From a virus: a stretch of DNA of 26,366 nucleotides. Position numbers and translations under genes: made by a program. The notes under the pieces are model-generated. The model was given only the letters and a program-made list of their open reading frames with translations. It did no database searches and had not been told where the DNA came from. Position 1 is the stretch's first letter, and each line of letters opens with the position of its first letter. The stretch is from the IMG/VR virus record IMGVR_UViG_3300020455_000081, positions 1 through 26,366 of that record, one strand, 5' to 3'. Of the stretch, positions 57 through 19,200 are shown in pieces.

Positions 57-201
57 CGTCCTCCGTGATGGTAAAGTTATTTTCACGAATGTAAGTGAAA
101 TGGAATACTTTAATTTAATGGAGGATTTTGCATTGGAGTTCTATCAAACAGGAACTCCGCATCCTAATGAAATTAGTTTTGAGATACTAGAAGATGAGTA
201 A
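40..201 (+). CDS. Small conserved T4-like marine phage protein, 53 aa
   Basis: This short ORF begins at an ATG with an in-frame TAG nine bases upstream, so no earlier start is available. The product begins MTSRYNVLRDGKVIF and ends FEILEDE; it is acidic, rich in aromatic residues, and has no signal peptide or membrane segment. From memory, proteins with the pattern (S)RYNVxRxGxxIFxNxxxxEYFxxMEDxAxEFYQTGxPxPxE are widespread small hypothetical proteins in marine T4-like cyanophages; I could not search to confirm this. Its last codons overlap the start of the following gene by 8 bases, which suggests translational coupling. No function is known to me. Coding status is well supported by the codon pattern and by the overlap geometry. 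Confidence 0.8.
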   Translation: MTSRYNVLRDGKVIFTNVSEMEYFNLMEDFALEFYQTGTPHPNEISFEILEDE

Positions 202-814
202 AGTAGCAATTGCTTATAAAGGTAGTTTTAATTCACCGCTAAGTCTCGTAGAGAGCACCATAGAGAATCACAAATCAATGTTCTTGGATTACTTCGAGGA
301 CATTGATTTCTTTTTTAGTACCTATAATATTGGTGATACGGAACTTAGAGATCTTTATAATCGTGAATTGAATGGTATAGAGTGGGGTTATATTCCATCT
401 GAGTTAATGACTGCTTCTACGTGGACTGCACAGTTTGAGCACCACGGGAACCTCGCTCGTATGATTAGCAACCGTGAAACTCGATATGATTTGATCGTAA
501 TTACTCGACCTGATTTACGTTGGTTGAAACCTTATAGTGACGTAAACATTGATAACTCGAAGTTTAATATAGCGATTCAACATCAATCAGGGAATTGTGA
601 TGATAATCTCTTTGTATTCCCTCAGAATTATTTGAATGGATTTGTAAAGAGTATTGATGAACTCAAGAGTGGTGGTGGTATTACACACGCATTGAATCAT
701 CGTTTAGTTGAGAATGGTGTTCCAATTCATTATATGCAAGAGTATGATGAATCTACATTCCATACTAATTCTAATTTGGGGCAATCGATCTTTACTATGT
801 GCAAATACTTATGA
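194..814 (+). CDS. Glycosyltransferase-like protein, 206 aa
   Basis: The protein opens with a beta-strand-like KVAIAYKGSF, followed near residues 31-45 by YFEDIDFFFSTYN and near residues 99-110 by YDLIVITRPDLRW. This layout (N-terminal strand, 'D-F-F-S-T-Y', then 'YD-hydrophobic-RPDL-W', then DDNLFVFP near residues 137-144) is reminiscent of LPS/capsule glycosyltransferase-like proteins in which an R-x-D-L element sits on the nucleotide-sugar side. No classical DxD is obvious, so the family call is an inference. It starts inside the end of the preceding small ORF (8-base overlap), and its TGA overlaps the next ATG by 4 bases. Seven of its eight arginines use CGN codons, unlike the AGA-rich structural genes downstream. 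It could act with the sugar-modifying genes that follow. The alternative is a hypothetical protein of unrelated fold. Confidence 0.5.
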   Translation: MSKVAIAYKGSFNSPLSLVESTIENHKSMFLDYFEDIDFFFSTYNIGDTELRDLYNRELNGIEWGYIPSELMTASTWTAQFEHHGNLARMISNRETRYDLIVITRPDLRWLKPYSDVNIDNSKFNIAIQHQSGNCDDNLFVFPQNYLNGFVKSIDELKSGGGITHALNHRLVENGVPIHYMQEYDESTFHTNSNLGQSIFTMCKYL

Positions 815-1401
815 ATACTCCTACAACTCAATTAAAAGATCTTATACACGTTGAGAAGGGCATTATACCCCCTGAGTTGTGTGATGCCTGTGTCAATGAT
901 ATAAAGAGGCGTACAGAGTGGCAAGCACACAAATGGTACAGTAATGATTCAGGACAGGTAAGTCTAGATGATAAGAGTCGAAAGGAATTAGATATACTAT
1001 TTGCAGGAAGGGAATTAGATAATAAGTTTCTTCCTATTATATTTGAAGTCGGATCAATCTATAATGAGAAGTTTGCATGGGATTCACCATTAACATCAGA
1101 GATTATAAGTACAACCACGATACTTCGATTTAATCGTTATCGTGAAGGAGAAGAGATGTTTCAACATATGGATCATATTCATTCTTTATTTGAAGGTGAA
1201 AGAAGAGGAATACCAGTATTGAGTTTTATTCTTAACTTTAATGATGATTATGAAGGTGCTGATTTATATTTTTGGAATGATACAGTTGTTTCTTTAGGAA
1301 AAGGTGATATAATAGTATGGCCATCGTTATTTTTATTTCCGCATGCAGTCTCTAAATGTACGAAAGGAACTAGATACTCAGCAGTTACATGGGCTTGGTG
1401 A
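811..1401 (+). CDS. 2-oxoglutarate/Fe(II)-dependent oxygenase (prolyl-4-hydroxylase-like), 196 aa
   Basis: This is a double-stranded beta-helix oxygenase with the expected iron and 2OG ligands. The H-x-D pair lies in FQHMDHIH (His119, Asp121), the distal histidine is in LFPHAVSK (His178), and the 2OG-binding arginine follows ten residues later in KGTRYSAVTWAW (Arg188). The spacing of about 57 residues between the first and last metal ligands is normal for the P4H-like family. The substrate is not shown: such phage enzymes could hydroxylate a protein side chain, a sugar or a small molecule. I chose ATG 811, which overlaps the upstream TGA as ATGA; a GTG at 799 would add four residues but lies inside the previous gene. 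The position in a glycan-type cassette favours a role in tailoring a sugar or surface compound, which is an inference. Confidence 0.82.
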   Translation: MNTPTTQLKDLIHVEKGIIPPELCDACVNDIKRRTEWQAHKWYSNDSGQVSLDDKSRKELDILFAGRELDNKFLPIIFEVGSIYNEKFAWDSPLTSEIISTTTILRFNRYREGEEMFQHMDHIHSLFEGERRGIPVLSFILNFNDDYEGADLYFWNDTVVSLGKGDIIVWPSLFLFPHAVSKCTKGTRYSAVTWAW

Positions 1402-1405
1402 AGAT

Positions 1406-1747
1406 ATGGAAGAAGTTACAAAACCGTGGGGATCTTATACTAATCTTTTAGATGAAGATTATACTAAGGTTAAAAAGATCGTTGTTAAACCTGGTCAATC
1501 CCCTAGTTATCAGTATCATTATAAAAGAAGTGAGGTATGGATTATCGTAAAGGGCGTTTGTACTGTGCGTTATAATGATATTTTAAAGGATTATGGAGTT
1601 GGAGATACCATAAACATCTCTAGATTAGGTAAACATCAACCAATAAACAATGGAACTGAAGATGTAGTGTTTATTGAAGTACAATTAGGTACTTATTTTG
1701 GTGAAGATGACATTGTGAGGTTGGAAGATAAGTATGGAAGAGTATAA
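1406..1747 (+). CDS. Cupin protein of the mannose-6-phosphate isomerase type II C-terminal family, 113 aa
   Basis: The protein matches the C-terminal cupin of bifunctional mannose-1-P guanylyltransferase/mannose-6-P isomerases. It begins KPWGSY (residues 6-11), has KKIVVKPGQSPSYQYHYKRS with the Q-x-H-x-x-R-x-E pattern (Gln36, His38, Arg41, Glu43), the GVGDTINI turn, a second histidine in LGKHQPINN (His77), and the closing IEVQLGTYFGEDDIVRLEDKYGR that is diagnostic of the family. It stands alone, without a fused nucleotidyltransferase. It could isomerise a hexose phosphate or bind a related sugar phosphate. I chose ATG 1406, four bases after the preceding stop and just before the conserved KPWG; an upstream in-frame ATG at 1343 would lie inside the oxygenase gene. 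It overlaps the next gene by 14 bases. Confidence 0.85.
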   Translation: MEEVTKPWGSYTNLLDEDYTKVKKIVVKPGQSPSYQYHYKRSEVWIIVKGVCTVRYNDILKDYGVGDTINISRLGKHQPINNGTEDVVFIEVQLGTYFGEDDIVRLEDKYGRV

Positions 1748-3287
1748 AGTATTACTTACTACAAGTGGATTAGGTTCTAGATTAGGAAATCTAACAAAGT
1801 TTACCAATAAAAGTCTTGTTCGTATTGGTGATAAACCTGCAATTTCACATATAATTGAATCTTACCCCTCAGAGGTTGAGTTTATCGTGACTCTGGGGCA
1901 TTATGGATCGCATGTGAAGCAGTATTTAACACTTGCACATCCAGAAAGATCAATAAAATTTGTAGAAGTTGATAATTATATGGGTGAAGGAAGTAGTTTA
2001 CTCTATTCTATCTCTTTGACACAAGAGTTTTTACAGTGCCCATTCATATTTCACGCTTGTGATACAATTCTGCCACAGAATTATGCAAAAGATATTGATT
2101 TTACAACAAATTGGTCAGTTGGTGGTATAGGAAGTAACAGTCAAGCATACAGAACACTTAATTGTGTGAATGATCGTATTGCTTCTATCAATGAAAAAGG
2201 TGAGCAAAACTTTGATTATGTCTATGTTGGTGTATCTGGTATTAAAGACTACCAAGTATTTTGGAATCATTGTAATTCTATCGTAAAATCGATTAAAACA
2301 AGCGATTTGAGTGATTGCCATATCATTAGGAAGATGAATGACTTCCGTGTTATAGAGGCAAATGAGTGGTATGACATGGGTAATGTTGATTCATTGAAGA
2401 AAACCAGAGAAAAGATCAAAGGAACTATCAATGTATTAGATAAAGAGGATGAAAATATCTTCATTGTTAACAAACATGTGATTAAATTCTTTGAAAATAA
2501 GAAAATATGCTCTGATAGGGTTGCTAGAACAGATAATCTAAAGCGTTTAGTTCCTCCAATACTTGAAAGTACTGAAAACTTCTACAAATACAAGTATGTT
2601 GAAGGGCATTTACTTGCTGACGGCATCAATTTAGAAGATTTTAAGCATCTATTGGTTTGGGCAACGGGTAATCTATGGAAAAGTAAGAAAGATTCATCAT
2701 TTAAAAATAACGCACTATCCTTTTATAGGGACAAGACAATCTTAAGAGTGGATAAGTTCCTTGATAAGTACAATCTTATCGATAAAAGTGATATTATTAA
2801 TGGAATCGAAGTACCTTCTATCAGTTCTATGTTGGAAATTGTCAATTTTGATGAAATTATGGGTAAAGAACCTACTGGGTTTCATGGAGATTTTATTTTA
2901 GACAACATTTTACAAAAAGATGATGAATTTACACTCATTGATTGGAGACAAGACTTCAATGGGAGTATTGATGCAGGTGATATGAGGTATGATCTTGCAA
3001 AATTGAACCATAATTTAGTGTTGAATCATAAAGTTTTGGCAAAAAGTCTCTATGCAGTAGAAATTTCTGATAATATTGAGTGTGATGTGTTTGTTAAGAA
3101 GTCATTTATGGATTGCAAGGAGATTTTACATAATTTTTGTGAAGAATACTTGGGAACTAACTTTAAAAACATTGAAATATTGACTGCTATCATATGGATT
3201 AATATGTCTCCTCTACATGAATATCCACTTGATATGTTTTTATACTATTTTGGCAAATATAATTTACATTTGAGCCTTAGTAAATGA
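1734..3287 (+). CDS. Bifunctional nucleotidyltransferase - aminoglycoside/choline-kinase-like phosphotransferase, 517 aa
   Basis: Two domains are visible. Residues 1-230 form a sugar-phosphate-type nucleotidyltransferase: SGLGSRL at 11-17 is the NTP-binding loop, followed by TNKSLVRIGDKPAI (24-37), a candidate metal aspartate in FHACDT (Asp110), and WYDMGN at 212-217, which resembles the closing D-I-G-N element. Residues 235-517 form an APH/choline-kinase-like domain: HVIKFFE supplies the ATP lysine (Lys251), YKYVEGHLL the hinge (287-294), HGDFILDN the catalytic loop (384-391, Asp386 and Asn391), and LIDWR the Mg-binding aspartate (Asp403). All key residues appear intact, so both activities are plausible. 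The pair resembles a LicC-LicA (phosphocholine) logic or a kinase plus nucleotidyltransferase for an activated sugar or polyol. The start at 1734 overlaps the cupin gene, and the stop overlaps the next ATG (ATGA). The substrate is unknown. Confidence 0.8.
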   Translation: MEEYKVLLTTSGLGSRLGNLTKFTNKSLVRIGDKPAISHIIESYPSEVEFIVTLGHYGSHVKQYLTLAHPERSIKFVEVDNYMGEGSSLLYSISLTQEFLQCPFIFHACDTILPQNYAKDIDFTTNWSVGGIGSNSQAYRTLNCVNDRIASINEKGEQNFDYVYVGVSGIKDYQVFWNHCNSIVKSIKTSDLSDCHIIRKMNDFRVIEANEWYDMGNVDSLKKTREKIKGTINVLDKEDENIFIVNKHVIKFFENKKICSDRVARTDNLKRLVPPILESTENFYKYKYVEGHLLADGINLEDFKHLLVWATGNLWKSKKDSSFKNNALSFYRDKTILRVDKFLDKYNLIDKSDIINGIEVPSISSMLEIVNFDEIMGKEPTGFHGDFILDNILQKDDEFTLIDWRQDFNGSIDAGDMRYDLAKLNHNLVLNHKVLAKSLYAVEISDNIECDVFVKKSFMDCKEILHNFCEEYLGTNFKNIEILTAIIWINMSPLHEYPLDMFLYYFGKYNLHLSLSK

Positions 3288-4282
3288 AATTTCCAAAGTA
3301 TTACATTGGTCCAATGAGTAAAAATGTAGTTGATTGTATTATTGATCACAGTCAACAACATTCTGTTGGGTTTATACCCTCTAGAAGGCAAGTCGATTAC
3401 AATGGTGGTTATGTTAATGGTTGGACAACCGAATCTTTTACTGATTATGTAAGAAAAAGGAGTTCATCTCCTCTTCTTTGTAGGGATCATGGTGGAGAAA
3501 ATCAAGGTCAGGTTGAAGATGATGGTATAAAGTCATTTAAAGAGGACTGTACTCGTTTTGATTTGATTCATATTGACCCATTTAGGGTATGTAAGGATGT
3601 AAACTCTGCTTCTAAGGTTACAAAAGAGGTAATAAAGACTCTTTTTGAGATTAATCCCAAAATAATGTATGAAGTAGGTACAGAAGAGGCTATTTTTAAG
3701 TATCAACCAGAAGATTTAAAGAATTTTCTTAATTATCTACAAACTTCATTAACACCAAAACAATTTGCACAGATAAAATATGCAGTTGTTCAGTCTGGAA
3801 CTGGTTTAGATTTATCAACAAGAACAAATACTGGTAATTTTAGTAAAAGAAGACTTAGTAAGTTTATAAAAGTAGTAAAAGAATTTAATTTGATGAGTAA
3901 AGAGCATAATGGAGATTATCTAATTGATTCTTTTGATGTTGAACTAAGATTTGATACTGGATTAGATGCCATTAATATTGCACCAGAATTTGGGCAAATT
4001 GAATCGGAATATTATTTGGAACAATGTAAGAGCGATAAAGAACTATTTGAAACTCTTTATCAGATATGTTATACTTCAGGCAAATGGAAAAAATGGGTAA
4101 GAAATTTTGATAGAATATCAAGAGATCAGTTAATTATGACTTCTTGTCATTACATACTATCAAATAAAGATTTTATTCAAAAAATAAAATCAAATTTTCC
4201 TAATTCTGATACATTAATTAAAAAAAGAATTAATTCTAAGTTAAAATTGTTAAATGAGCAAACAAAAAGTTATTGCATTTGA
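3284..4282 (+). CDS. TIM-barrel aldolase-like protein, possibly GatZ/KbaZ-related, 332 aa
   Basis: The N-terminal half has strand-loop motifs typical of a sugar-phosphate aldolase barrel: GFIPSRRQVDYNGGYVNGWT (residues 29-48), LLCRDHGGENQGQ (64-76), DLIHIDPF (93-100), IMYEVGTEE (127-135) and VVQSGTGLDL (168-177). The order 'RDHGG - HIDP - EVGTE - QSGT' is reminiscent of the GatZ/KbaZ non-catalytic subunit of class II tagatose-bisphosphate aldolase (GDH-x-GP, HLD, VGTE), though lengths and details differ. The C-terminal third is helical and lysine-rich. No catalytic partner (GatY/KbaY-like) is present in the window. It overlaps both neighbours (ATGA at the start, 29 bases at the end), so it is probably co-translated with the nucleotidyltransferase-kinase and the HAD phosphatase. 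It may form or cleave the sugar or polyol phosphate that they process; this is inference. The start has no clear Shine-Dalgarno sequence. Confidence 0.55.
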   Translation: MKFPKYYIGPMSKNVVDCIIDHSQQHSVGFIPSRRQVDYNGGYVNGWTTESFTDYVRKRSSSPLLCRDHGGENQGQVEDDGIKSFKEDCTRFDLIHIDPFRVCKDVNSASKVTKEVIKTLFEINPKIMYEVGTEEAIFKYQPEDLKNFLNYLQTSLTPKQFAQIKYAVVQSGTGLDLSTRTNTGNFSKRRLSKFIKVVKEFNLMSKEHNGDYLIDSFDVELRFDTGLDAINIAPEFGQIESEYYLEQCKSDKELFETLYQICYTSGKWKKWVRNFDRISRDQLIMTSCHYILSNKDFIQKIKSNFPNSDTLIKKRINSKLKLLNEQTKSYCI

Positions 4283-4640
4283 TTTGGATGATGTAATTTG
4301 TTATCGTCCCACTGAATATGAGCATTATGGACCTGATAAGTATGATTACTGTAAACCATACCCAAAAGTAATTGATATAGTAAATTCATTATATAAAGAT
4401 AATTACATTAAAATCTATACAGCAAGAGGAATGTCACAATTTAATGGTGATGTTGAAAAAATCTATGATATGCTGTATAATAAAACTATAAAACAATTAG
4501 ATTCTTGGGGTGTAAAGTTTCACCAACTTATTATGGGAAAAACGCATTATGATGTATTAATTGATGATAAGGCACTTAACTCATATAATATAAAAGAATC
4601 AACTATCAATAAATTTCTAATGGAGGGAATGAATGGCTAA
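4254..4640 (+). CDS. Small HAD-superfamily phosphatase (capsule-biosynthesis type), 128 aa
   Basis: HAD motifs are complete and in order: motif I FDLDDV with nucleophile Asp10 and acid/base Asp12, motif II IKIYTARG with Thr56, motif III lysine in IMGKTHYD (Lys96), and motif IV VLIDDKA (Asp104, Asp105). With 128 residues and no room for a large cap, it resembles the small cap-less HAD phosphatases found in capsule and LPS sugar clusters, which remove a phosphate from a sugar-phosphate intermediate. It begins 29 bases inside the preceding aldolase-like gene and overlaps the following small ORF by 8 bases. A nucleotidase or polynucleotide-phosphatase role is a possible alternative, but the neighbours favour a sugar phosphate. 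Confidence 0.8.
   Translation: MSKQKVIAFDLDDVICYRPTEYEHYGPDKYDYCKPYPKVIDIVNSLYKDNYIKIYTARGMSQFNGDVEKIYDMLYNKTIKQLDSWGVKFHQLIMGKTHYDVLIDDKALNSYNIKESTINKFLMEGMNG
4622..4627 (+). promoter_or_regulatory. Shine-Dalgarno sequence for the 4633 small gene
   Basis: GGAGGG lies five bases upstream of the ATG at 4633, inside the last codons of the HAD gene. It is one of the strongest ribosome binding sites in the window and supports the reality of the short ORF that follows. Confidence 0.65.
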
Positions 4641-4782
4641 AGTAAAAGCAGGTGCATTAGGCACTGCTGATTATATTGAAGCAATACCTAAAAAAACCAG
4701 TCAAGGTATGGGTAAGCATACAAAATATTCTGCTACTTCACGCAATCGTGCTAAAAAACGGTACAGAGGACAAGGTAAATAA
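4633..4782 (+). CDS. Small basic conserved T4-like marine phage protein, 49 aa
   Basis: The product starts MAKVKAGALGTADYIEAIPK, continues KTSQGMGKHTKYSATSRNR and ends AKKRYRGQGK. It is very basic in its C-terminal half, suggesting nucleic-acid binding or packing in a virion. From memory, near-identical small proteins (pattern KKTSxGxxxxTKYSATSRNxxKKRYRGQG) recur in marine T4-like phages, usually annotated as hypothetical; I could not verify this by search. A good Shine-Dalgarno site (GGAGGG) precedes the start, the gene overlaps the HAD phosphatase by 8 bases, and an intrinsic terminator follows immediately, so it is the last gene of the upstream unit. Confidence 0.85.
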   Translation: MAKVKAGALGTADYIEAIPKKTSQGMGKHTKYSATSRNRAKKRYRGQGK

Positions 4783-4871: not shown

Positions 4872-5273
4872 ATGGCACAGAATCGTTTATCAAGAGGATT
4901 TAAAGACATAAGTCTATCTTTTGGACCACATCCAGTCACAAAAGATCTTCCTGTTTTGTTGAATGAACGTGCCATAACAAGATCCGTAAGAAATTTGGTG
5001 GAGACTATTCCATCAGAAAGATTTTTCGATTCCCTTATAGGTAGTGATATTCGTGGCAGTTTATTTGAAAACTTTTCGCCAGCAATAAATGTTATTATTT
5101 CAGATCAAATAAAAGAATCAATATCAAATTATGAACCAAGAGTTGATAATGTTGAAGTTGAAGTAGATTCAACACCAGACTTAAATACTCTTGAGGTAAC
5201 GGTTCTTTTTGATATTGTAGGTGAAGAATTTCCTACACAATCATTTACTTTCTTGTTAGAACCCACTAGGTAA
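4872..5273 (+). CDS. gp25: Baseplate wedge subunit gp25
   Basis: The 133-residue product is the same size as T4 gp25 (132 aa). It has the gp25-like fold signature: an N-terminal FKDISLSFGPHPVTKDLPVL segment (residues 10-29), NERAITRSVRNLVETIPSER, the GSDIRGSLFENF helix (57-68), and the EPR core motif (Glu88-Arg90) shared by gp25 and type VI secretion TssE proteins, where it joins the gp6/TssF-like partner at the sheath-baseplate junction. It is the first gene after the terminator and late promoter. The stop codon is one base from the gp6 ATG, so the two are probably translated in balance. No strong Shine-Dalgarno site precedes the start; the leader is AT-rich. Confidence 0.95.
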   Translation: MAQNRLSRGFKDISLSFGPHPVTKDLPVLLNERAITRSVRNLVETIPSERFFDSLIGSDIRGSLFENFSPAINVIISDQIKESISNYEPRVDNVEVEVDSTPDLNTLEVTVLFDIVGEEFPTQSFTFLLEPTR

Positions 5274-5274
5274 T

Positions 5275-7236
5275 ATGCCCTTTACACAGTTTACAAATCT
5301 AGACTTTGATCAAATAAAAGTACAGATTAAAGATCATCTTCAAGCAAATTCCAATTTCAAGGATTTTGATTATGAAGGTTCTAATTTGGCGGTTATTATT
5401 GATCTGTTAGCATATAATACTTACATTAACTCGTTTAATGCAAATTTACTTGCAAATGAATCTTTCTTAGATTCTGCAACTATAAGAGAGAATGTAGTAT
5501 CACTTGCACGTAATATTGGATATGTTCCAAGATCAAAAACCTCTGCAGTAGCAACAATTAAATTGGGTGATGTAGAAATAAATGATAATATTGTTACTCC
5601 TAATGTACCATTTATCGAATTAAGACCAGGTTTAGTGTGTGTAGGATCTATAAACAATACAACGTATAGATTTTCGATTCCTGATGAAGTCACTTCATCT
5701 AGAATAATTACAAAAGAAGTTGATGGTGTAAAGAGGCGGTTTGCTCAGTTTGACGATAATATTTCAATCTATGAGGGGACTTTATTACAAAGATTGTTTA
5801 GAGTTGATACTAGTAAAGATCAAAGATTCATTATAGATTCACCAAATATAGACAGTTCAACGATTAGAACCTATGTATCTGGTGTTGCTGATGCTGGTAA
5901 AGGTAGAAAATATTCTGTAGTTGATAATATTCTTAAGTTAGATAAAGATTCCGAAATTTATTTAATTCAAGAAGTACAAGATGAAAAATATGAGTTGTTA
6001 TTTGGTGATGGATTATTTGGTAAAAAGTTAGAAAACAATTCTGATATATTGGTAAGTTACATTGTTACAGACGGTGAAACTGGAAATGGTCCTTCTGAAT
6101 TTAGTTTTCAAGGAACATTTATGGATCACAATGGTATATTATTACAACCAAGTGATAATGTTACCATAACAACTATTCAACGTGCCTCTAACGGTGCTGA
6201 AGTAGAGGATTTATCATCTATTAAGTATTTTGCACCTAGATTATATTCTGCTCAATACAGGGCAGTTACACCAAGAGATTATGAGGCAATAATTGAATCA
6301 ATTTACCCTAAAACTGAATCTGTTGCTGTTGTTGGTGGTGAAGAATTAGATCCACCACAGTTTGGTAAAGTTCAAATTAGTATCAAACCAAAAAATGGTA
6401 CATATGTATCTGATTTTGATAAACAACAGATTAAGAATAAATTAAAAAATTATGCAATTGCTGGAATTAATTCAGAAATTGTAGATCTTAAAATACTCTT
6501 TGTTGAAATTGATTCAACAGTTTATTATAACTCAACTCAAGTTGCAGATGCATCTACATTAAGAACCACTGTTATTAATTCATTACAACAATATGCAAAC
6601 AATGTTGAAATTAATAAGTTTGGTGGTAGATTCAAATATAGTAAAATGAATCAATTGATTGATAGAGTTGATAATGCAATTACTTCTAATATCACTAAAG
6701 TTATAATAAGAAGAGATTTAAAGGCATTATTAAATCAATTTGCACAATATGAATTATGCTTTGGTAATAAATTTAATATTAATCCTGCAGGATTTAATAT
6801 TAAGAGTACTGGATTTACAGTTGCTGGAGAAACTAATACTGTTTACTTTACAGATGTTCCAAATAAAGATGGAAATGGTAATTTAGACAAATCTAATAAA
6901 GGAACTCTGAGTATTGTATATCAGAATACTAAAGGAGATTTAAAGGTTGTTGTTAAAGATGTTGGAATTGTTGATTATAAGAAAGGTGAAATTATTATTA
7001 ATACAATTAATATTACATCAACAATGTCTCCAAATAATTTAATTGAGATTCAAGCATTCCCAGAATCAAATGATGTTGTTGGACTAAAGGATCTTTATCT
7101 TAGTTTTGATGTTTCAAATAGTAAGATAAATACTGTTAAGGACGTAATTGCTTCAGGAGAAGATGTATCAGGGGTTGTATTTACAAGAGACTATTACACA
7201 TCAAGTTACTCTAACGGGATATTAGAGAGGAAATAA
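5275..7236 (+). CDS. gp6: Baseplate wedge subunit gp6 (baseplate J-like)
   Basis: The 653-residue length closely matches T4 gp6 (660 aa). The N-terminal block FDYEGSNLAVIIDLLAYNTY (residues 31-50), then NESFLDSATIRENVVSLARN (61-80) and IGYVPRS, is the hallmark of T4-like gp6. A baseplate J-like core follows near residues 329-405 (RAVTPRDYEAIIESIYPKTE, then VVGGEELDPPQFGKVQISIK), and the C-terminal third is beta-rich. gp6 forms the dimeric core of each wedge and links gp25, gp53 and gp7 around the baseplate hub. It sits one base after gp25 and three bases before the giant gp7-position gene. No sign of truncation or frameshift is visible. Confidence 0.95.
   Translation: MPFTQFTNLDFDQIKVQIKDHLQANSNFKDFDYEGSNLAVIIDLLAYNTYINSFNANLLANESFLDSATIRENVVSLARNIGYVPRSKTSAVATIKLGDVEINDNIVTPNVPFIELRPGLVCVGSINNTTYRFSIPDEVTSSRIITKEVDGVKRRFAQFDDNISIYEGTLLQRLFRVDTSKDQRFIIDSPNIDSSTIRTYVSGVADAGKGRKYSVVDNILKLDKDSEIYLIQEVQDEKYELLFGDGLFGKKLENNSDILVSYIVTDGETGNGPSEFSFQGTFMDHNGILLQPSDNVTITTIQRASNGAEVEDLSSIKYFAPRLYSAQYRAVTPRDYEAIIESIYPKTESVAVVGGEELDPPQFGKVQISIKPKNGTYVSDFDKQQIKNKLKNYAIAGINSEIVDLKILFVEIDSTVYYNSTQVADASTLRTTVINSLQQYANNVEINKFGGRFKYSKMNQLIDRVDNAITSNITKVIIRRDLKALLNQFAQYELCFGNKFNINPAGFNIKSTGFTVAGETNTVYFTDVPNKDGNGNLDKSNKGTLSIVYQNTKGDLKVVVKDVGIVDYKKGEIIINTINITSTMSPNNLIEIQAFPESNDVVGLKDLYLSFDVSNSKINTVKDVIASGEDVSGVVFTRDYYTSSYSNGILERK
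7224..7231 (+). promoter_or_regulatory. Shine-Dalgarno sequence for the giant gene
   Basis: AGAGAGGA lies eight bases before the ATG at 7240, overlapping the last codons of gp6. It supports the chosen start of the giant ORF. Confidence 0.55.
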
Positions 7237-7239
7237 AAT

Positions 7240-10200
7240 ATGGCAAAAATTGATAAGAGTATACAGGTTAATACTGTAATTAAAAATCAGTTACCTGACT
7301 TTGTTGTATCAGATTTTCCAAATGCAGTAGAATTTTTTAAACAATATTATATTTCACAGGAATTTCAGGGTGGACCCACTGATTTAATAAGCAATTTTGA
7401 TCAATACTTAAAGGTAGATAATTTAGTACCTGAAGTTGTTGTTGGAACTACAACACTTTCTTCTGAAGTTGATACTACTTCTAAAACAATTTTCGTTACA
7501 TCAACAAAGGGATTTCCAGACCAATATGGTTTATTAAAAATTGATAATGAAATTATTTCATATACATCTAAAACTGATACTACTTTTGTAGATTGTTCTC
7601 GTGGTTTTAGTGGTATTACTGGATATAATGTTGGCATTTCATCATCATTATTAGATGTTAATAGAGAGTCTTTAGTTTTTAACGATACTCTTTCAGAAAC
7701 ACATAAAGTAAACGCTACTGTTACTAATCTTAGTGTATTATTTTTACAAGAATTTTTTAAGAAGTTAAAGAGAACATTTTTACCTGGATTTGAAGATGTA
7801 TCATTTTCTGATGATCTTGATGTAGGTAATTTTATAAAGATTGCTAGAACTTTTTACCAATCAAAGGGTATTGAAGAATCTATTGCTATTCTTTATAAAG
7901 TATTGTTTGGTGTAGAAGCAAGAGTATTAGATCTAGAAGAGAATTTAATAAAACCATCTGGTGCAGAATTTATTCGTAGAGAAGTAATAGTTGCTGAACA
8001 AACTAGTTTAACTGGAGATCCTTCTAATTTAGTTGGACAAACAATTTATAAATCAACAGATACTAGAACACAAGCATCAGTTTCTGAAGTAGAACAATTT
8101 ACAAGAGATAATAAATTATATCATAAAATATCTCTATTTGTTGGATATAGTGATAGAGATTTAATTGAAGGAACATTTACAATACCAGGAAACACTAAGT
8201 CTTTAGAACAAGTTCTTGAGAATGGATCAACTATTCTGGTTGATTCTACTGTTGGTTTTGGTAAAACTGGTGTTTTAATAAGTGGTGATAATATAATAAA
8301 TTATACCTCAAAAACTATAAATCAGTTCTTTGGTTGTGACGGAATTGGTAGTTCAGGTATTGGTACTGCTGATAATATTAGATCCAATGAGGTTATTTTT
8401 GGATATGAGAACGGAGATTTAAATAAAAAGATTGAACTTAGGATTACTGGAGTTCTTTCAAGTTTAGAAACCATTTCTGATATTTCTTTAGTAACAGAGA
8501 AAGAAAATATTTACGTTAAAAATGTAGGTGAAAAGATTGAAAATCCTACTGATGGTACTGCAACATATAAAGAAATATTTGCAAATTCATGGATTTATAA
8601 TACTTCTAGTAGATATCAAGTTGAGAGAGATGGAATTAATGGATCTACCTTTACATTACCAAGCACCATTGAATCATCTAGTTTAAAAAAAGGCGATAAA
8701 GTTTCTATCCTTGGGAGAAATTCTCAAACAGTTGAATATGGTGCATCAAATGGTAATATAGACGATGTTAACACTTCAATAAAACCAAATACAGTAAAGA
8801 TTGGTAATTTAGCATCTTGGCCTGGTGCGGTAACTGGAAAGTCATATGATATAAGAAGAAATCTTAAAAAGGCATCAAGTACTGGTGTTACTATAAAAAC
8901 TGGTAATGAAAGTATTCTTACTGATGTATTAAATGTTTATAATAATAAAGATACTGATGGATATGTAGTATCTAATTCATTACCAAGTTATTCTATTAAA
9001 ACTGATTTAATTAAAGAAACAATTGTTGGAGTTACTACTGATGGTACCAATCCAACATTAATAAATGAAGTTAGTAGTGGAAAATATGATACAATATCCT
9101 TTGCCCAAGTCACTGCTAGTACATCTGCCTCAATTAAATTTGTTAAAGGTGATTCTGTTATATACACTTCAGGTATTGCAACTCAACCAATACTTGGATT
9201 AGTATCTGGCAATCGTTACTATGTCGATGTTTTAGAAAATACTGGAAATTATACTTCTAATATTAAATTATACAGTTCAAAGGGTCAGCAAGAAAGTAAT
9301 AATGTTATTCTTTTACAGGCATCTGGTGCTGGACAAACACATACATTTACTTTAGAGAGACAATATAATAGAACATTAGACTCCTCATCAGTTTTAAGAA
9401 AATTCCCATTAAAGCAAAATCCATTTGTAGTTGGTAAAGAAGAAGTTCCAACAAATACTGTTGGTATTTTAATTGATGGTGTTGAACTAAGAAGTTCAGT
9501 ATCTGATGATAACATTTATTATGGACCTTTAACAAAGTTAGATCTTTTTAATGGTGGAACAGGTTATGATGTTTTAAATCCACCTAAAGTGGTGATTGAA
9601 GATTCTATAGTTAGAGATAGTAATGGATTAAAAATTGGTATAGGAGAAACTGCATTAGTTGAACCAATCATAGAAGGATCTGTTGAAGAAGTACTTGTAG
9701 ATCCTCAAGATTTTGATATTGATGAAGTAAGTGATATTAGTATTACTGGTGGTAATGGTAATGGTTGTTTATTAGAGGCGATTACAGGACCTAGATTTAG
9801 GGAATTGGAATTTGATAGTAGAGATATTTTCTTTAATGGTGGTATATCAATTGAAGATGAAACCATAACTTTTAAAACACCACATAATTTTGCAAACGGT
9901 GAAAAGGTTTTTTATAATAGTAATGGTAATACTAATATTGGAATTGGTGCATATAAGGATGCTGGTAATACGATTACAGGAACCTTAGCAAATGGTGCAC
10001 CCTACTATGTTAGTATAGTTAATAGTTCGACTGTTCATTTATATAATAGTGAAAGTGATGCTATATCTGGTATTAATACTGTTGGTTTATCTACAGATAC
10101 TAATGCTAGTGGTGTTCATAAGTTTAGAACTGTTTCTAAAAATACTATAAAGGCAGTAAAGGTTATAAATTCTGGATCTGGTTATCAATATAGAAAATTA

Positions 10201-13200
10201 AATGTAAAACCATCTGGAATATCTACATCTTTTAATACAATTAATTACAAGGATCATGGATTTAAAGATGGTGAATTGATCAATTACAGTCCAACTGTTG
10301 GTATTGGTAGCACATATCCTAAAGCAATAGGTGGGTTAAATACCACCAATTCATATTATGTTATGAAAGTAGATGATGATGCATTCAAACTTGCTGATGC
10401 AGGTATTGGTGGAACATCAACATTTGATTTTAATAGGAGAAAATTTGTTGGATTACAAACAACAGGAACAGGATATCAAACGTTTAATTACCCTGAAGTA
10501 AGAGTAACAGCAAAAGTTTCATATGCTTCTAGTATTACTGGAGATTTTGTATTTACTCCAATTATTACAGGTAAACTTACTGGATCTTATGTTTATGAGC
10601 AAGGTACAAAATATGGATCAGTTACTGTAAATCATCAAAAAGACCCATCAATAACTATACAAAATGGTAAAGATGCAGAATTAAAACCAATTGTAAGTGG
10701 TGGTAAAATTGTTGATGTTGTTGTTATGAGTAAAGGTAAAGAATTTTATTCTCTACCAAAATTAGTTATAACTGGATCTGGTAATGGTGCTGTTTTAAAA
10801 CCAGTTATTGGTGATGGAAAACTACAAAGTATATTAGTAATTAATCCAGGTATTGGTTATAATACCTCTAATACTAGTGTATATGCGGATCCAAGAGGTA
10901 TTAATGGATTATATGAACCAAGAGTAAGAAATCTAACAATAAACAGTACAAAGAGATTTGGTGAATATTATTTAAACCCTCAAGGGGACTCTTCATTAGG
11001 ATTTAATGTTGTTGGGTATAATCAGGATTTGGCAGTTCATTTTGGCGAAACATTTACAGTTGAACAAAATGGCAATTTCAATGAACCAACAGGTCACTCT
11101 CCTATAATTGGATGGGCATATGATGGAAATCCAATTTATGGTCCTTTTGGATATACAACTCCTGATGATATTAACTCTGCTGTGGGTATCATTACAAGTG
11201 GTTATGTTGCAGATTTATCAAGAGTTGATAATAGACCAGTTGCAGCAACTGGCACATTAGCATTTGATAATGGATTTTTCGTTCAAGACTATTTTTATGA
11301 TGGAAATGGTGATTTGGATGAACACAATGGTAGATTTTGTAAAACTCCAGAATTTCCAAATGGAGTGTATGCTTATTTTGCAAGTATAGAAACTAGTAGT
11401 GGTGTTATTAAACCAGCATATCCATATTTTATTGGTAAAACATATAGATCACCATTAATTAAAGACAATCATACACTTGATCATGATTTTGACTTTAACA
11501 GTACAAATTTATTAAGAAATACTGCACCATATAAAGTTGGTGATAAATTTGCAGAAAATGATTTTATTATTGAGTCTAATGAGACTCTACGACAATTATC
11601 CAATGTTGAGTCTGTTACTACAGGTGACGTTACTAATATAACTGTTTTAGATGGTGGATTTGGTTATAAAGTTGGTGATTATACAGATTTTGATGATACA
11701 GATAGTAATGGTAGTGGATTAAGAGCACAAGTTGATGAGATAGTTGGTATTGGTGTTTCTAGAATTGATACACAATTGGATAGATTTGAGGATGCAACTT
11801 TTGTTTGGAATAATAATGATGAGGTTATTGCACACAATCTTCCAAATATAGAATTAAATAATCAAGATACAGTTTCAATTTCTGGTTTAAGTACAGTTGT
11901 TGTTAATCTTACAAACTCATTTAGTGTTGGTGTTAAAACTGACATCATAGGATTAGCAAAAACTATGACAGTTAATTCTAATGCACTTGGTGCAATAGAA
12001 GATATATTTGTTACTAGAATTCCAAATACAGTTTCGATTGGTGGATCATTAAGAATTGCTGATGAGATTGTCAAGGTTCTTAATATACACCAATTAAATT
12101 CTGCAATTACCGTTAAGAGATTTGCTATAGGAATAGCTCATACTTTTGGTACAAATATTGATGTGTTGAATAGTCAGATTTCTATACCAGCAAAAACTAA
12201 GAGATTTGATTCTAAAAAAGATGATTTGGTATTTTTCAATGGACCAAAATCTGTTGGTGTTGGTACAACTACTGGTGGTGGAGTATACATTGACCATCCA
12301 ATAGGTGAAATTGAAAGAAGAATATATGCACCGACTAGAACTATATTCTTACCTAATCATCCGTTTAAAACTGGACAAGAAGTTAAATTTAGTAAGCATC
12401 CAAATGGATCTCAAATTAATGTTGGAAATACTCCTACAGGCAACCAGTTCTCAATACCACAATCTGGTTCACCTTATACCGATACAGTATATGTAATTAA
12501 TAAAGGTGAAGATCATATTGGTATAGTTACTACTAGGGCAGGTTTAGCAAATACAAGTGAAGGAGTATATTTCTTCTCTAATGGTATTAATGGATTAGCA
12601 TCTTACAAGTTTACTGAATCTGAATATTTAATTTCATCAAATTATACAAAAGTAACAGGTGATATTGATAGAATAGTTTCTACTGTTACTACTAAGATTG
12701 GATTAGCACAAACAACTACTCATGGACTGAATAATGATGATGTAGTTAAAATGGATGTTGTTCCTTCAATTAGCGTTGGTATAGGATCAACTGATGCAAT
12801 TTCTGTTAATTGGAATGAACAATATCAGAAATTATTAATTAATCCTATACAATTTACAAATACTTCTGTAAAAATAAATCAGTTAAATTTAGTAGATCAT
12901 AAATTAAAAACTGGTGATAAAGTTTTTTATGAAGGTTCTGCTACTGGATTATCAACTGGATCATATTATGCTTATAAGATAAGTGATGATTATATTGAAT
13001 TGGGTGAAACTTATATTGATGTAACAGTAAATCCAGTAAATACATTAGATATTACTCAAAATACTGGTGGTAATGATCAAAGAGTATCTTTAATAAACCC
13101 ACCAATAACAGTTGTTAAAAACTCTCAATTAACATTTGGATTATCAAGCAGCACTTTATCAAATTTCACATTTAAAGTATTTTATGATAATCAGTTTAAA

Positions 13201-16200
13201 AATGAATATTATAGTTCTACTGAGAGTGTAGATTTTAATGTTGTAGGATTTGGCACTATTGGTATTGGTACATCACCAGATTTACCTGTTGTTGGAGCAT
13301 CTTTAACTGTTTCCTACTCTAAATCTGCACCATCAAAAGTTTATTATGCTTTAGAAAGAAATGGATATATTAGTACATCAGATACAGGAGTACAAAATTA
13401 TTCAGAAATAAGTTTTATTGATAGTGCTTATAGTGGTGAATATAAGGTATTTGGTATTAGTTCTGATACATTTAAGATTTCTCCATATAAAACTCCAGAA
13501 TTCTTATCATATACTGAAAATGATTGTAGTAAGATCGAATATTCAACTAGATCTACTTCAGTTACAGGTTCTATCAAAGATCTTAAAATTATATCAAAAG
13601 GATATAATTATAAAAAATTACCTAAGTTTTTATCCGTTAAAAGTGGAAATGGTCAGAATGCAAACTTAGTAGCAGTTTCTACTTCAATAGGTAGGATTAA
13701 AGATGTTCGTATTGTTGATATTGGATATGAATATGCTTCAGACAAAACATTAAGTCCAGAAGCATTTGTGTCACCTATTATTAATCTAGATGACTTAGAT
13801 GTTATTAAAAATATTAATATAGTTAATGGTGGATCTGAGTATTTGGGTGCTCCAGATTTAGTTCTTTATAATCCAGAGAAGAAAGAAATTGTTGACGAAG
13901 TATCTCTAATTGCTAAAGTTCCAAATCAAAGTATATCTGAAGTTGAGATATTTGCACCAATTAGGGGATTACAATCAGTAACTCATAAATTAGTTACTAT
14001 TAATAACTCTAATGGTGTAGGAATTAATTCTATGCAGAGTGGTTCTGGCATAGTAACTTGTGTATTAGAGACACCTATTGCAGGATTTGCAGTGCCGCCA
14101 TTTATTGCAGGTGATGAAATATTTGTAGAAGGTATACAACTTGTAGGAGAATCTGGAATAGGAACTCAGTCGAATTCAAATGTAGGAATTTCAAGTGAAG
14201 GAACGGGATTTAACTCTAAGGATTATGACTTCCGTTTCTTTAAAGTTGAAAGTTTTATAAATTCAAATCCAGCAGTATTGAAATATAGTGTTGCTGGATT
14301 AACAACAAATCCAGGATTCGCAAAAACTTTCCAATCTGGATATGCAACTATAGTAAACAAAAATAATTATCCAGTTCTAGAACCAATCCAAGAGAGAGGT
14401 ACATATCAGGTTGGTGAAAAATTATTAGTTAATAGTGGAGTTAATTTTGAAGAAACTGATTTATCAGTTGTTGATTCTAGAGATGATTATATTAGAGTTG
14501 ATGGATTATATCAATTACAGAAAAATGATATAATTAAAGGTCAAGTTACTGATGTTTCTGCTACTGTAACTAGTTTTGTAGAAAATAAAGCAAAATTCAA
14601 TATATCATACTCAAATCGTCAAGATTATGGTTGGTTGAATAACACAGGAAAATTAAATGATGATTATCAAGTAATACCTAATAATGATTATTATCAAAAT
14701 CTTTCATATTCTGTTAAGAGTCCTATAGAATGGGAAAAATCTGTAGATCCATTGAATCGTGTAATACATCCAGCAGGTCTTAAGAACTTTGCTGATGTTG
14801 GAATATCATCTAGTGTTCCTGCAGGAATATCATCTACTCATAGTTCTTCTCCAATTTTAATATTGGATGTAATTAACGATGTTAATAGAGTTGATACTAT
14901 TAACAATATAGATCTTTCAACTGATTATGATTCTAGAACTAATCCATTAAGATCAAAATATTTACAATTTGAGAATCTAATATTAACTGATTATACTAAA
15001 TGCAAATCAAATAGGGCATTACAACATGATGACATTAGTGGTAAATTCTCAAGTAAAGGAGTACAAGATTTATTTACAGAAATTGAGGAAGTAGATGGAT
15101 TATTTGCTAATTACATTGTTCAGATAGTTGATCCAGATACTTTTGATATACAACTTAGTGAAGTTGTTGTATTAACTAAAACTTCTGATGTAATTCTATT
15201 TGAAAAAACAACAGATTTTACAAATAATAAATTAGGTGATTTTGTTGCTGATTGTGATTTCACTAATAGAAAAACTTTAAGATTTGAACCAACCGAGAAA
15301 TTTGAAAAAGATCATGATATTAAAGTTCTTAAGATTGATTTTAATACCGATTTAGAAACTAGTGGAACTCAATCAATAGGACATATTGATCTTAAATCAT
15401 CTAATGTTGGTATTGCCAGTACAACTGTTGGTTTTAATACAACAACTATAGCACAATTCTCAGAAAACGATTTTAATGCACTACAGGCTAATATCTTAGT
15501 TCAAGATGATATTACTAGAGAAGTTAATTATAGTGAAGTCATTGTTGATTTTGATGGAACAAATACTTACATAGCAGAAAACTATGTAGATACTGTATCA
15601 ATAAATTATAGTTCAAGTAGATTAGGTATTATTACTGCAAGATATGAATCTGGAAATATAAAACTTGATTTTGAAAATGAAAGAGATACTAAACTTACAC
15701 TTCAGGCAAATATAGTTGGATTAGGAACAACTACAGCAGGAACAAGTGTTTACAGATACAGTCTTCCTGGTCAACCTGCAGGTGCTGAAAGAAGTGCAAG
15801 GTATGAATCAACTTATTCATCAGATCATGCTCCAGGAATAGGGATAACATTCTCAACTCTCAATAAAGTAATTGATAGTAGTTCTAAATCTCTTGTTAGA
15901 GTATCTTGTGGTGAAACATCTGCTATTCATCAATTAATTGCAATGAGAGATGTTGATGATGTAGTTACAGTACAATATCCATTTGTTTCTGCTGGTTCTA
16001 CAACTGGAATAGGTACATTTGGTGGAGAAATTGCTGGAAATGATATCAATCTTAAGTTCTATCCAGATGCTGAATTTAATTCATTAATAGAAATTCAAGC
16101 ATATAGTAAGATTTTATATACTTCTAGTGATTTTGAAAATACACCACCAGATCTTGATATTGGTGCTGTTACTGAAAAATTATTCTTATCTGCATATGAT

Positions 16201-19200
16201 GGACCAAATGGTGAAAGAGCAAATAAAGTTAATTTTGATCTTAAGCATGAAGGTATACCAATTTATAGTAAGACCTTTAATCCTTCAGATACAAATACTT
16301 TAGGTGTTCTTCCAAACTCTTCAGGTATATGTACTATTTCAAATCATTTCTTTAATACTGGAGAAGAATTAACATATACTGCAAATTCAACATTTATTGG
16401 TGTGGGTGCAACTCCAGTATCAATTGGATCTACAGCAAATAATGCTGGTGTTGTGACAACATTAATGCCATCTACTGTATATGCTAAAGTTTTAGATGAA
16501 AATAGAATACAGTTGTATAGTAAGAAATCATATGTAACAAGTGGAACTCCAATATCATTTACTGGAATTGGAGAAGGAAATGCTCATAAATTGGAAATGA
16601 CTAAGAAGTTGAGTAAAACTGTTATTGGCCTTGATGGAATTATTCAACAACCAGTTACATATACAACTATAGAGCATACTCTAGATGGTGCTATTGGTGC
16701 TGGAGTGACACAATTCGCTCTTAGTGGAATTAGTTCTGTTCAACCAAGAGATATATTGAAGGTTGGATCTGAATATATGAAGGTTGAACAAGTTGGATTT
16801 GCTAGTGTTTCTGATGGAATTATTGATGATGCAACTAATACTGCTTTAGGAATTTCAACTATTCCTGTTGTTTATGTTAATAGGGGATCATTGGGTATAG
16901 GTGCAACATCTCACCAAGATGATGCACTTGCTAGAATTCATAGAGGATCCTTTAATATTGTTGATAGTACTGTATGGTTCTTAGATCCACCTAAAGGAAA
17001 TACTAGAGAAAGAAGAAGTTTAACAAATCTTCCATATGTTAAGGCAGAATTTAATGGAAGAACGTTTACTAGAAGTAATTATGATACCAATATGGTATTT
17101 GATGATATTTCAGATAGTTTTACTGGTATTGGTAGAACATATACATTGAGTGTTGGTGGTGCTAATACAGAAACTGGTGTTGGTATTGGAAATGGTATAT
17201 TATTCATTAATGGAATATTCCAAACACCATTAACTGTTAATAATACAGGAAATAATTATGAATTTGACAGTACAAGCGTAGGTATTTCTAGTGTAGTATT
17301 TACTGGAATTAGTTCTGAAAATGGAACTATGATGCAATCTGAGTTTGATATCAATCAAAACCAGTTACCAAGAGGTGGTATCATTGTATCTTTAGGATCA
17401 ACTTCAGGTTTAGGGTATGCACCACTTAAGGGATCATTAGTTCAAGCATTTAAAGATACTGCTGATAATAGCCTTGATTCAATAGTTGGTATTGGAACTT
17501 CTTCAGGTGTAAGTTTAGGTATTCAAACTGCTTCATATAGTCACATAACAGGTATTATTACAGTTACAACTAATGAAGTTCATGGATTATCTCTCGGTGA
17601 ACCAAAAACTGTTAAGTTGGAGAATTTAGAATTCAAATGTTCTACAGAGCATGCAGGAGTAACAACAACTATATTCAATGATGATGATCGTGCTTTATCT
17701 TTAGTTGGAATAATATCAGAAAGATCCGTTGAAGTTAAGGCTGGTGTATGTACTATCCCACACGTTTATCAAGGTGGTGGAGATCTTTTTGAGTTCTATA
17801 ACGATTTAAATACAGGATCTGGTTATCGTGAACCAGTTTCTATAGGTGTCAGTGATACTGAATATATTCATAAGTTTGTAAGTTCATCAAATAATTCGAT
17901 TACTGCAAATACAGGTACACAATTTACACCAACACAAGCAGTTTATAGTTCTTCAACTGGTGAGTTACTATTAACGGTTGGTAGTCACAGTTTACAGGCA
18001 TCAACAACACATACTGTAGAAAATGCATCTTATGTTGCTTCTACTGGAATTTTAACAATTACTATTACGGGTCATAACTTCTCTAATGGCGATTACGTTA
18101 AAATTCAGGACAATTCATTAACATTTAAGTGTGCAATGGATGGAAGCACTGCAAATAAAACCTATCCAAGACCGAATGATCCAATTAGTAATAAGTGGAT
18201 GGAAATATCCAATGTTGCTACTGATACATTTACTATTGATGTTGGAGCATCACCTATAGTAAACTTTAACGTAACAGATGCAGATTATGATCCTGTTACA
18301 GGTTTAATGGAATTAACTATTGGATCTCATTCATTAAAACCAGGCACTAGTATTAAACTTGCTAATGAATCTATTGGATTTAGTTGTGACGTAGATAATA
18401 ATGCAACAACTAAGTTCTATCCACGTTCTACAGATCCATTCTATGATACTGCTATTAATATTGAATCTGTAACTGATACAACTATTACATTACAAGTATT
18501 AACTACAATACCTTCTACAAATACAACACAACATACATTTGTATCTGCTAATCCTAATTGTATAATCTCAGGTGGAAATTACACTCACGCATTCCAAACA
18601 AACCAATCTGTTGCTGTAGATTGCCTTAAGAAAGCAAATAATACAGTACAAATAGCAAATAATTCATTGACATTTAAGTGCTCTAGAGATAATTATCTCA
18701 GTGATCACACATATCCACGTTCTACCGACTTAGCATCTGGAAATCAGTTAGGTATAGATGCAATTTCAAGTAATTTAATTCGGGTTAATGTTGGTGCTGG
18801 TGGTGGAGGTGGAACTGGTGCAAAGGTAACTGCTAAAGTTGCAACTAATGTTCATAAATTTGTAACTGCAACTGCAGGTGCTGCATTTACTGGATCTACA
18901 CAGAAAAATGTTACTGATGCTGATTATAATCCAGCAACAGGATGGATGCAGGTAACAAGTGCTTCACACGGTTTTGTTGGATGCTCCACTATTACACCAA
19001 CAAATGCTTCTTATGCAAAAACAACTGGTGTTTTAACTCTTACTAAGAATGGACATGGATTTAATGTTGGAGACTATATTTTAATTGAAGATAACTCACT
19101 AACATTTACTTGCACTAAAGATGGAAATGTTTCCGAACATCCTTATCCAAGATCAACAGATTATGCTAGTGGTAAGTGGTTACAGATTACTAATAAAACT

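Follow-up and report, generated by a model that had tools for sequence, protein, structure and literature searches.

A six-gene cassette upstream of baseplate genes

We describe a cassette of six successive open reading frames (ORFs) on the plus strand, at positions 194-4640 of the window, by which we mean the whole 26,366-nucleotide stretch of the IMG/VR virus record IMGVR_UViG_3300020455_000081. Four of these genes, which we term the core, code for a PMI-type II cupin predicted to be a sugar-phosphate isomerase (1406-1747; 113 residues), a nucleotidyltransferase (approximately residues 1-235) fused to an APH-type kinase (approximately residues 240-517; the fusion protein, at 1734-3287, is hereafter NTK), a GatZ/KbaZ-like barrel predicted to be a ketose-phosphate C4 epimerase (3284-4282; 332 residues), and a small HAD phosphatase (4254-4640; 128 residues). 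They are preceded by gene 1 (194-814; 206 residues), which is glycosyltransferase-like by its predicted GT-A fold, and gene 2 (811-1401; 196 residues from the ATG at 811), which codes for an accessory 2-oxoglutarate (2OG)-Fe(II) oxygenase. Neighboring genes overlap by 4 bases (ATGA, gene 1 and gene 2), 14 bases (cupin and NTK), 4 bases (NTK and GatZ-like) and 29 bases (GatZ-like and HAD), with a single gap of 4 bases between gene 2 and the cupin gene; the ORF coordinates bear out the tightly packed chain described in an earlier sequence-only reading of this DNA.

The domain assignments of that reading fared differently from gene to gene. Pfam cut-offs are passed by the oxygenase (PF13640, 42.8 bits against a cut-off of 27) and the cupin (PF01050, 89 bits against 23.6), the metal ligands of which (Q36, H38, E43, H77) are invariant in 16 relatives. 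The nucleotidyltransferase, kinase, HAD and GatZ-like domains fall below Pfam cut-offs, and are backed by PHROG, NCBIfam or PDB profiles, by invariant catalytic motifs or by fold, while the assignment of gene 1 stands at the level of fold. The nucleotidyltransferase domain of NTK matches TIGR03992 (6e-10) and, among PDB sequences, LicC at the top (1jyk, 3e-7) and also glucose-1-phosphate cytidylyltransferase (1tzf); its kinase domain, with a sub-cut-off APH match in Pfam, is APH/choline-kinase-like. The motif residues of both domains, namely G12, G14, R16, K26, D110 and D214 in the former and K251, H384, D386, N391 and D403 (K, HxD...N, D) in the latter, are invariant in 17 relatives. The HAD protein matches phrog_1238 (8e-25) and has the capsule biosynthesis protein 9iqw as its best PDB match (7e-14); it scores 8e-5 against the EcbF-BcbF model TIGR01689 (22.5 bits, below the cut-off of 162), and its motif residues D10, D12, T56, K96, D104 and D105 are invariant. 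All five core domains retain their catalytic motifs.

Direct Pfam and PDB sequence searches with the barrel returned nothing useful. In Foldseek, its AlphaFold2 (AF2) model (predicted local distance difference test score, pLDDT, of 88.6) found as best match 3txv of the GatZ/KbaZ family (9e-11), followed by class II fructose-bisphosphate aldolases (FBA), UxaE and tagatose 4-epimerase. This fold comparison, together with intermediate Firmicutes relatives at ~30% identity that score above the PF08013 cut-off, links the barrel to GatZ. Further, D68, H69, E134 and H208 of the window barrel align with D87, H88, E171 and H257 of Escherichia coli GatZ, which are its proposed zinc ligands and base, and both E. 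coli GatZ and KbaZ are fructose-6-phosphate 4-epimerases (PMC11907403). These four positions are kept throughout the barrel family, but for one Glu-to-Asp change. Gene 1 matched no Pfam model; its AF2 model (pLDDT 79) has as best Foldseek match the GT8 enzyme 3tzt (2.8e-6), then glycogenin and GT6, and also IspD/TarI, with TM-scores of ~0.5. It shows a conserved R105xD107 and D136-D137 with no clear DxD, and the nucleotidyltransferases IspD/TarI also match its fold. Both predicted structures are consistent with the placement of these two proteins in carbohydrate-enzyme fold families on which the sequence-only reading had depended.

Shortly downstream of the cassette lie the genes for the baseplate wedge proteins gp25 (4872-5273, plus strand; phrog_261) and gp6 (5275-7236, plus strand; phrog_219), which together serve as an anchor in the T4-like backbone. 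The nearest named isolate over this pair is Prochlorococcus phage P-SSM2 at 73% nucleotide identity, and by this measure the source is a marine T4-like phage related to that cyanophage. The cassette overlaps by 8 bases at each end two small flanking ORFs on the same strand, one upstream (40-201; 53 residues), homologous to PSSM2_107 and to SWZG_00170 of S-SKS1 at 38-40% identity, and one downstream (4633-4782; 49 residues), which matches phrog_516 (4.6e-23). In P-SSM2 the upstream homologue stops 2 bases before the phrog_516 start, and in S-SKS1 the homologues of the two ORFs are 9 bases apart; they are also adjacent in AG-345-E02. Since ~4.4 kb separates the same ORFs in the window, the six-gene block is, as these empty sites indicate, an insertion between two small neighboring genes, as had been proposed. 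The NTK-GatZ core is not found at the corresponding site of P-SSM2. We also considered whether gene 2 is the resident oxygenase of P-SSM2 and rejected this, as PSSM2_108 lies beyond the phrog_516 ORF and shares only 27% identity with gene 2 over 60 residues. The 4,748-residue ORF that follows gp6 (7240-21486), in the same region as T4-like baseplate genes, is nothing unusual in these phages: at the corresponding place P-SSM2 has a gene annotated as gp7 that is longer still (75005-90592).

Conservation, co-evolution and distribution of the core

With the barrel as query, 31 loci were recovered from viral contigs. In T4-like copies beside gp25/gp6 (L002-L009) the order is cupin-NTK-GatZ-HAD, with which three cut contigs (L001, L027, L028) agree; in L010-L026 the core lies mostly within long glycan islands that also contain GDP-mannose-dehydratase-like (GMD-like) enzymes, GT10, GT25, GT2, GT47 and GT61 glycosyltransferases, and methyltransferases. 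In several loci a gene for a TylF-type methyltransferase stands between those for NTK and GatZ. The 14-, 4- and 29-base overlaps are identical in 13 of the 14 loci examined (~60-100% protein identity), the exception being L013 with 1 base instead of 4, and the ratio of nonsynonymous to synonymous substitution rates (dN/dS, by NG86) lies between 0.09 and 0.20 for each of the core genes in all comparisons with measurable divergence. As core order and overlaps recur under such constraint, the chain is not a chance arrangement. The six-gene unit first proposed is upheld for its four-gene core. Gene 1 goes with the version of this phage group, being present in every intact copy, and has relatives in other islands. 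Gene 2 occurs in a minority of copies and is missing from most relatives; in another virus (L163), however, the module includes a homologue (6.5e-62), with NTK on one side of it and GatZ on the other.

A second viral scan with NTK as query yielded 79 loci. A GatZ-like gene is present in 73 of them (in 71 no more than two genes from NTK), a gene for a HAD phosphatase lies at most six genes away in 70, and a PMI-type cupin is encoded in 64. Of the six loci that lack GatZ, two (L140, L151) are on contigs that break off close to NTK. Clonal duplicates are ruled out as the cause of this co-occurrence, as the pattern persists when NTK is clustered at 95, 80 and 60% identity; at 60%, GatZ, HAD and cupin accompany NTK in 24, 25 and 22 of the 28 clusters, respectively. 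Moreover, pairwise distances of NTK and GatZ correlate with r = 0.927, a value reached by none of 1000 Mantel permutations: the two proteins co-evolve. Thus, the core genes stay clustered in related viral contigs, and the scattering that would have spoken against the sequence-only reading is not seen.

In three loci, two viral (L185, L192) and one cellular (L231), NTK instead neighbors a gene for a ribulose-phosphate-3-epimerase-like (RPE-like) protein and one for a SIS-domain protein, with neither GatZ nor cupin; these assignments are Pfam-confirmed in L231 and made by similarity to L231 in the other two. No such genes lie near NTK in any of the 82 loci where GatZ is present (Fisher p = 0.001, relatedness ignored). 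Hence, an epimerase and an isomerase seem, from these gene neighborhoods, to be swapped together as a pair, whereas NTK remains, as does a HAD in these three loci. No other observation speaks as strongly as this swap for a role of GatZ and the cupin on sugar phosphates at steps before NTK. In L185 and L204, the N and C halves of a transketolase-like protein are encoded nearby. Additionally, a gene for a shikimate-dehydrogenase-like (AroE-like) protein stands beside or close to NTK in L048 (8276-8968), L050 (8384-9001), L195 (7095-7892), L229 (1415-2209) and L230 (1225-2052); its product is possibly a dehydrogenase of the NTK pathway.

The T4-type gp23 capsid gene was found in 13 of the 37 module-carrying records searched, and supports a viral origin for those 13 only. 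Among named phage records, the single-cell contig Marine virus AG-345-E15 alone encodes NTK. A few bacterial and archaeal assemblies also carry the module: cellular NTK is rare, occurring in 3 of 289 genomes of one class (a count that includes the genome used as centre) and 2 of 296 of one phylum, and is found beside GatZ in L048, L050, L052, L054, L057, L058 and L232, and in L048 and L050 a cupin forms the N-terminal part of a fusion with NTK. A plasmid search with NTK gave a sole match at 21% identity; plasmid matches to the barrel are mostly annotated as non-catalytic subunits of tagatose-bisphosphate aldolase. Between the window and the close relative L007, dS is 0.04 for the cupin, 0.68 for NTK, 1.06 for GatZ-like, 0.31 for HAD and 0.13 for gp25, and this jump inside the cassette (within 1734-4282) points to a recombination event in which close relatives exchanged the NTK-GatZ segment.

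The barrel also has relatives apart from NTK. Marine Flavobacteria and related Bacteroidetes (L037-L047, L049, L051, L053) have a lone GatZ-like gene, ~44-52% identical to the phage barrel, mostly in a recurring chromosomal setting; in L039, the locus looked at in detail, it lies between genes for a beta-lactamase-family protein and an iron-sulfur (Fer2/Fer4) protein. As no NTK stands beside them, we left these genes out of the evidence for the module. Firmicutes relatives at ~30% identity occur with phosphotransferase system (PTS) EIIC genes and a HAD gene in L060, with a fucose-isomerase-like gene, a ROK kinase and a HAD gene in L065, and in L055 and further loci; given such neighbors, they are likely to be catabolic ketose-phosphate epimerases.

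A predicted route to an activated sugar

The conserved core, the fold and motifs of its products, and the pair swap support the suggestion of the sequence-only reading that an isomerase or aldolase, a kinase, a phosphatase and a nucleotidyltransferase jointly furnish an activated sugar. The explanation that we favor, and hold to be probable, is that the cassette is a horizontally moving module, the core of which makes a nucleotide-linked sugar in the infected cell for a surface glycan, with gene 1 and gene 2 as accessories. We posit that the GatZ-like barrel would act as an epimerase on a ketose phosphate, in the simplest case on C4 of fructose-6-phosphate through a retro-aldol/aldol reaction, and that the cupin would isomerize the resulting ketose phosphate to an aldose phosphate. 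The HAD enzyme would then take off the terminal phosphate, before or after the APH-type kinase domain phosphorylates the anomeric carbon, and the nucleotidyltransferase domain would form the nucleoside diphosphate (NDP)-sugar, the sugar of which might be transferred by gene 1 and modified, either as such or within the glycan, by the 2OG oxygenase. The acceptor would probably be a polysaccharide of the host envelope, so that later phages are kept out; the virion itself is the other candidate. An analogy points to the host surface, because lipopolysaccharide (LPS) genes of marine myophages are viewed in one account as a guard against coinfection (PMC7029224); decoration of the virion is equally open.

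Textbook stereochemistry from fructose-6-phosphate would give NDP-D-talose as the simplest product, which we offer as a guess with little weight behind it. More broadly, and tentatively, we entertain a new and widespread pathway in which a fixed activation unit of fused anomeric kinase/nucleotidyltransferase and HAD is combined with exchangeable ketose-phosphate pairs (GatZ with PMI-type cupin, RPE-like with SIS-like, sometimes AroE-like) to yield different rare sugars. Its GatZ form, carried by marine T4-like phages for their own surface glycan, would run from fructose-6-phosphate through tagatose-6-phosphate and talose-6-phosphate to NDP-D-talose. To our knowledge, NDP-D-talose is not known as a viral product.

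Several observations weigh against the activated-sugar explanation. The window barrel has no PF08013 match in the Pfam search, and C20, E44 and K279 of GatZ, which separate GatZ/KbaZ from FBA, are replaced by G9, I31 and N231 across its whole subfamily. Because of these replacements, it belongs to a separate GatZ-like subfamily, possibly with another substrate; a direct profile comparison between the phage barrels and three true GatZ sequences likewise fell short of significance. The nucleotidyltransferase domain is no closer to sugar-1-phosphate enzymes than to LicC and inositol-phosphate cytidylyltransferase, gene 1 is GT-A-like only at the level of predicted fold, the swap is based on three loci, and the AroE-like gene of some cellular and viral versions fits a polyol or keto product.

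Alternatively, the core might produce a polyol or ketose in nucleotide-linked form (an NDP-alditol or an NDP-ketose, comparable to CDP-6-glucitol) and not an NDP-aldose, with transfer as a phosphodiester. Such a product is favored by the best PDB matches of the nucleotidyltransferase, among them LicC and further cytidylyltransferases for alcohol phosphates, by the AroE-like dehydrogenase beside or near NTK in the five loci listed above, and by the CDP-6-fructose/CDP-6-glucitol precedent (PMC10918830). Nevertheless, the window has no reductase, the PMI-type cupin of 64 of the 79 viral loci would give an aldose, and a HAD phosphatase would serve no purpose were activation to take place at the terminal phosphate; we therefore regard this alternative as unlikely, though worth keeping in view. 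The same LicC match (3e-7) and the APH/choline-kinase-like kinase could point to activation of choline or ethanolamine in the manner of LicA/LicC, with the sugar enzymes nearby by coincidence. This comparison, drawn in the sequence-only reading, is disfavored, since the constant neighbors of NTK are sugar-phosphate epimerases and isomerases: GatZ, cupin and HAD accompany one another with a regularity beyond coincidence, and in loci without GatZ and cupin their place can be taken by different sugar-phosphate enzymes, which makes it very improbable. Hardly more credible is a role in intracellular metabolism, with the cassette comprising, for example, auxiliary metabolic genes that divert fructose-6-phosphate rather than serve a glycan. 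The catabolic barrel relatives with PTS genes in Firmicutes and the lone copy that marine Flavobacteria keep away from glycan genes are compatible with it, but the fused nucleotidyltransferase-kinase and the glycosyltransferase-rich surroundings have no evident central-metabolic role.

Relation to known systems and implications

In peptidoglycan recycling, MupP, AmgK and MurU provide a HAD sugar-6-phosphate phosphatase, an APH-type anomeric kinase and a nucleotidyltransferase that act in series to yield an NDP-sugar. This is the precedent for the series predicted here (PMC5371407), although the phage kinase and nucleotidyltransferase form one protein, are fed by an epimerase/isomerase pair, and score far below cut-off with MurU models. 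The GDP-heptose pathway invoked in the sequence-only reading shares the logic of isomerase, kinase, phosphatase and nucleotidyltransferase. However, no GmhA-type SIS isomerase or GHMP kinase was matched among the six window proteins in Pfam and NCBIfam, and the phage HAD is EcbF-like rather than GmhB-like; because the NTK kinase is APH-like and not of the GHMP type of HddA, AmgK-MurU-MupP is the better precedent. The CDP-6-D-fructose/CDP-6-D-glucitol pathway of Campylobacter jejuni HS:5 (PMC10918830) likewise makes a rare nucleotide-linked hexose from fructose-6-phosphate for a surface glycan, but with two enzymes, a nucleotidyltransferase and a reductase, and without kinase, epimerase or phosphatase. 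E. coli GatZ and KbaZ (PF08013) share with the phage barrel the predicted fold (3txv) and the Asp-His, Glu and His set for zinc and base; the phage protein is ~90 residues shorter and below Pfam detection, besides the replacements noted above, and is coupled to a kinase-nucleotidyltransferase, whereas the E. coli enzymes serve galactitol and N-acetylgalactosamine catabolism.

Biosynthesis of surface glycans by phage-carried genes is known, and what the phages concerned usually encode for it are glycosyltransferases or sugar enzymes of familiar kinds. The LPS/O-chain gene sets of cyano- and pelagimyophages likewise place surface-glycan genes in T4-like marine phages; as described in the available part of that account (PMC7029224), they are mostly glycosyltransferases and known sugar enzymes, and the NTK-GatZ core does not figure there. 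Searches of the open-licence literature on GatZ with nucleotidyltransferases or on talose nucleotides likewise brought up no description of the NTK-GatZ module. The present module is compact, escapes recognition as a pathway by both Pfam and PHROGs, and turns up in many contigs of viruses as well as a few assemblies of bacteria and archaea. It would constitute a small route of four enzymes, open to direct testing, to an activated sugar that is probably rare, would extend the GatZ epimerase family into biosynthesis, and may offer a handle on how marine T4-like phages change the surface of their hosts or their own.

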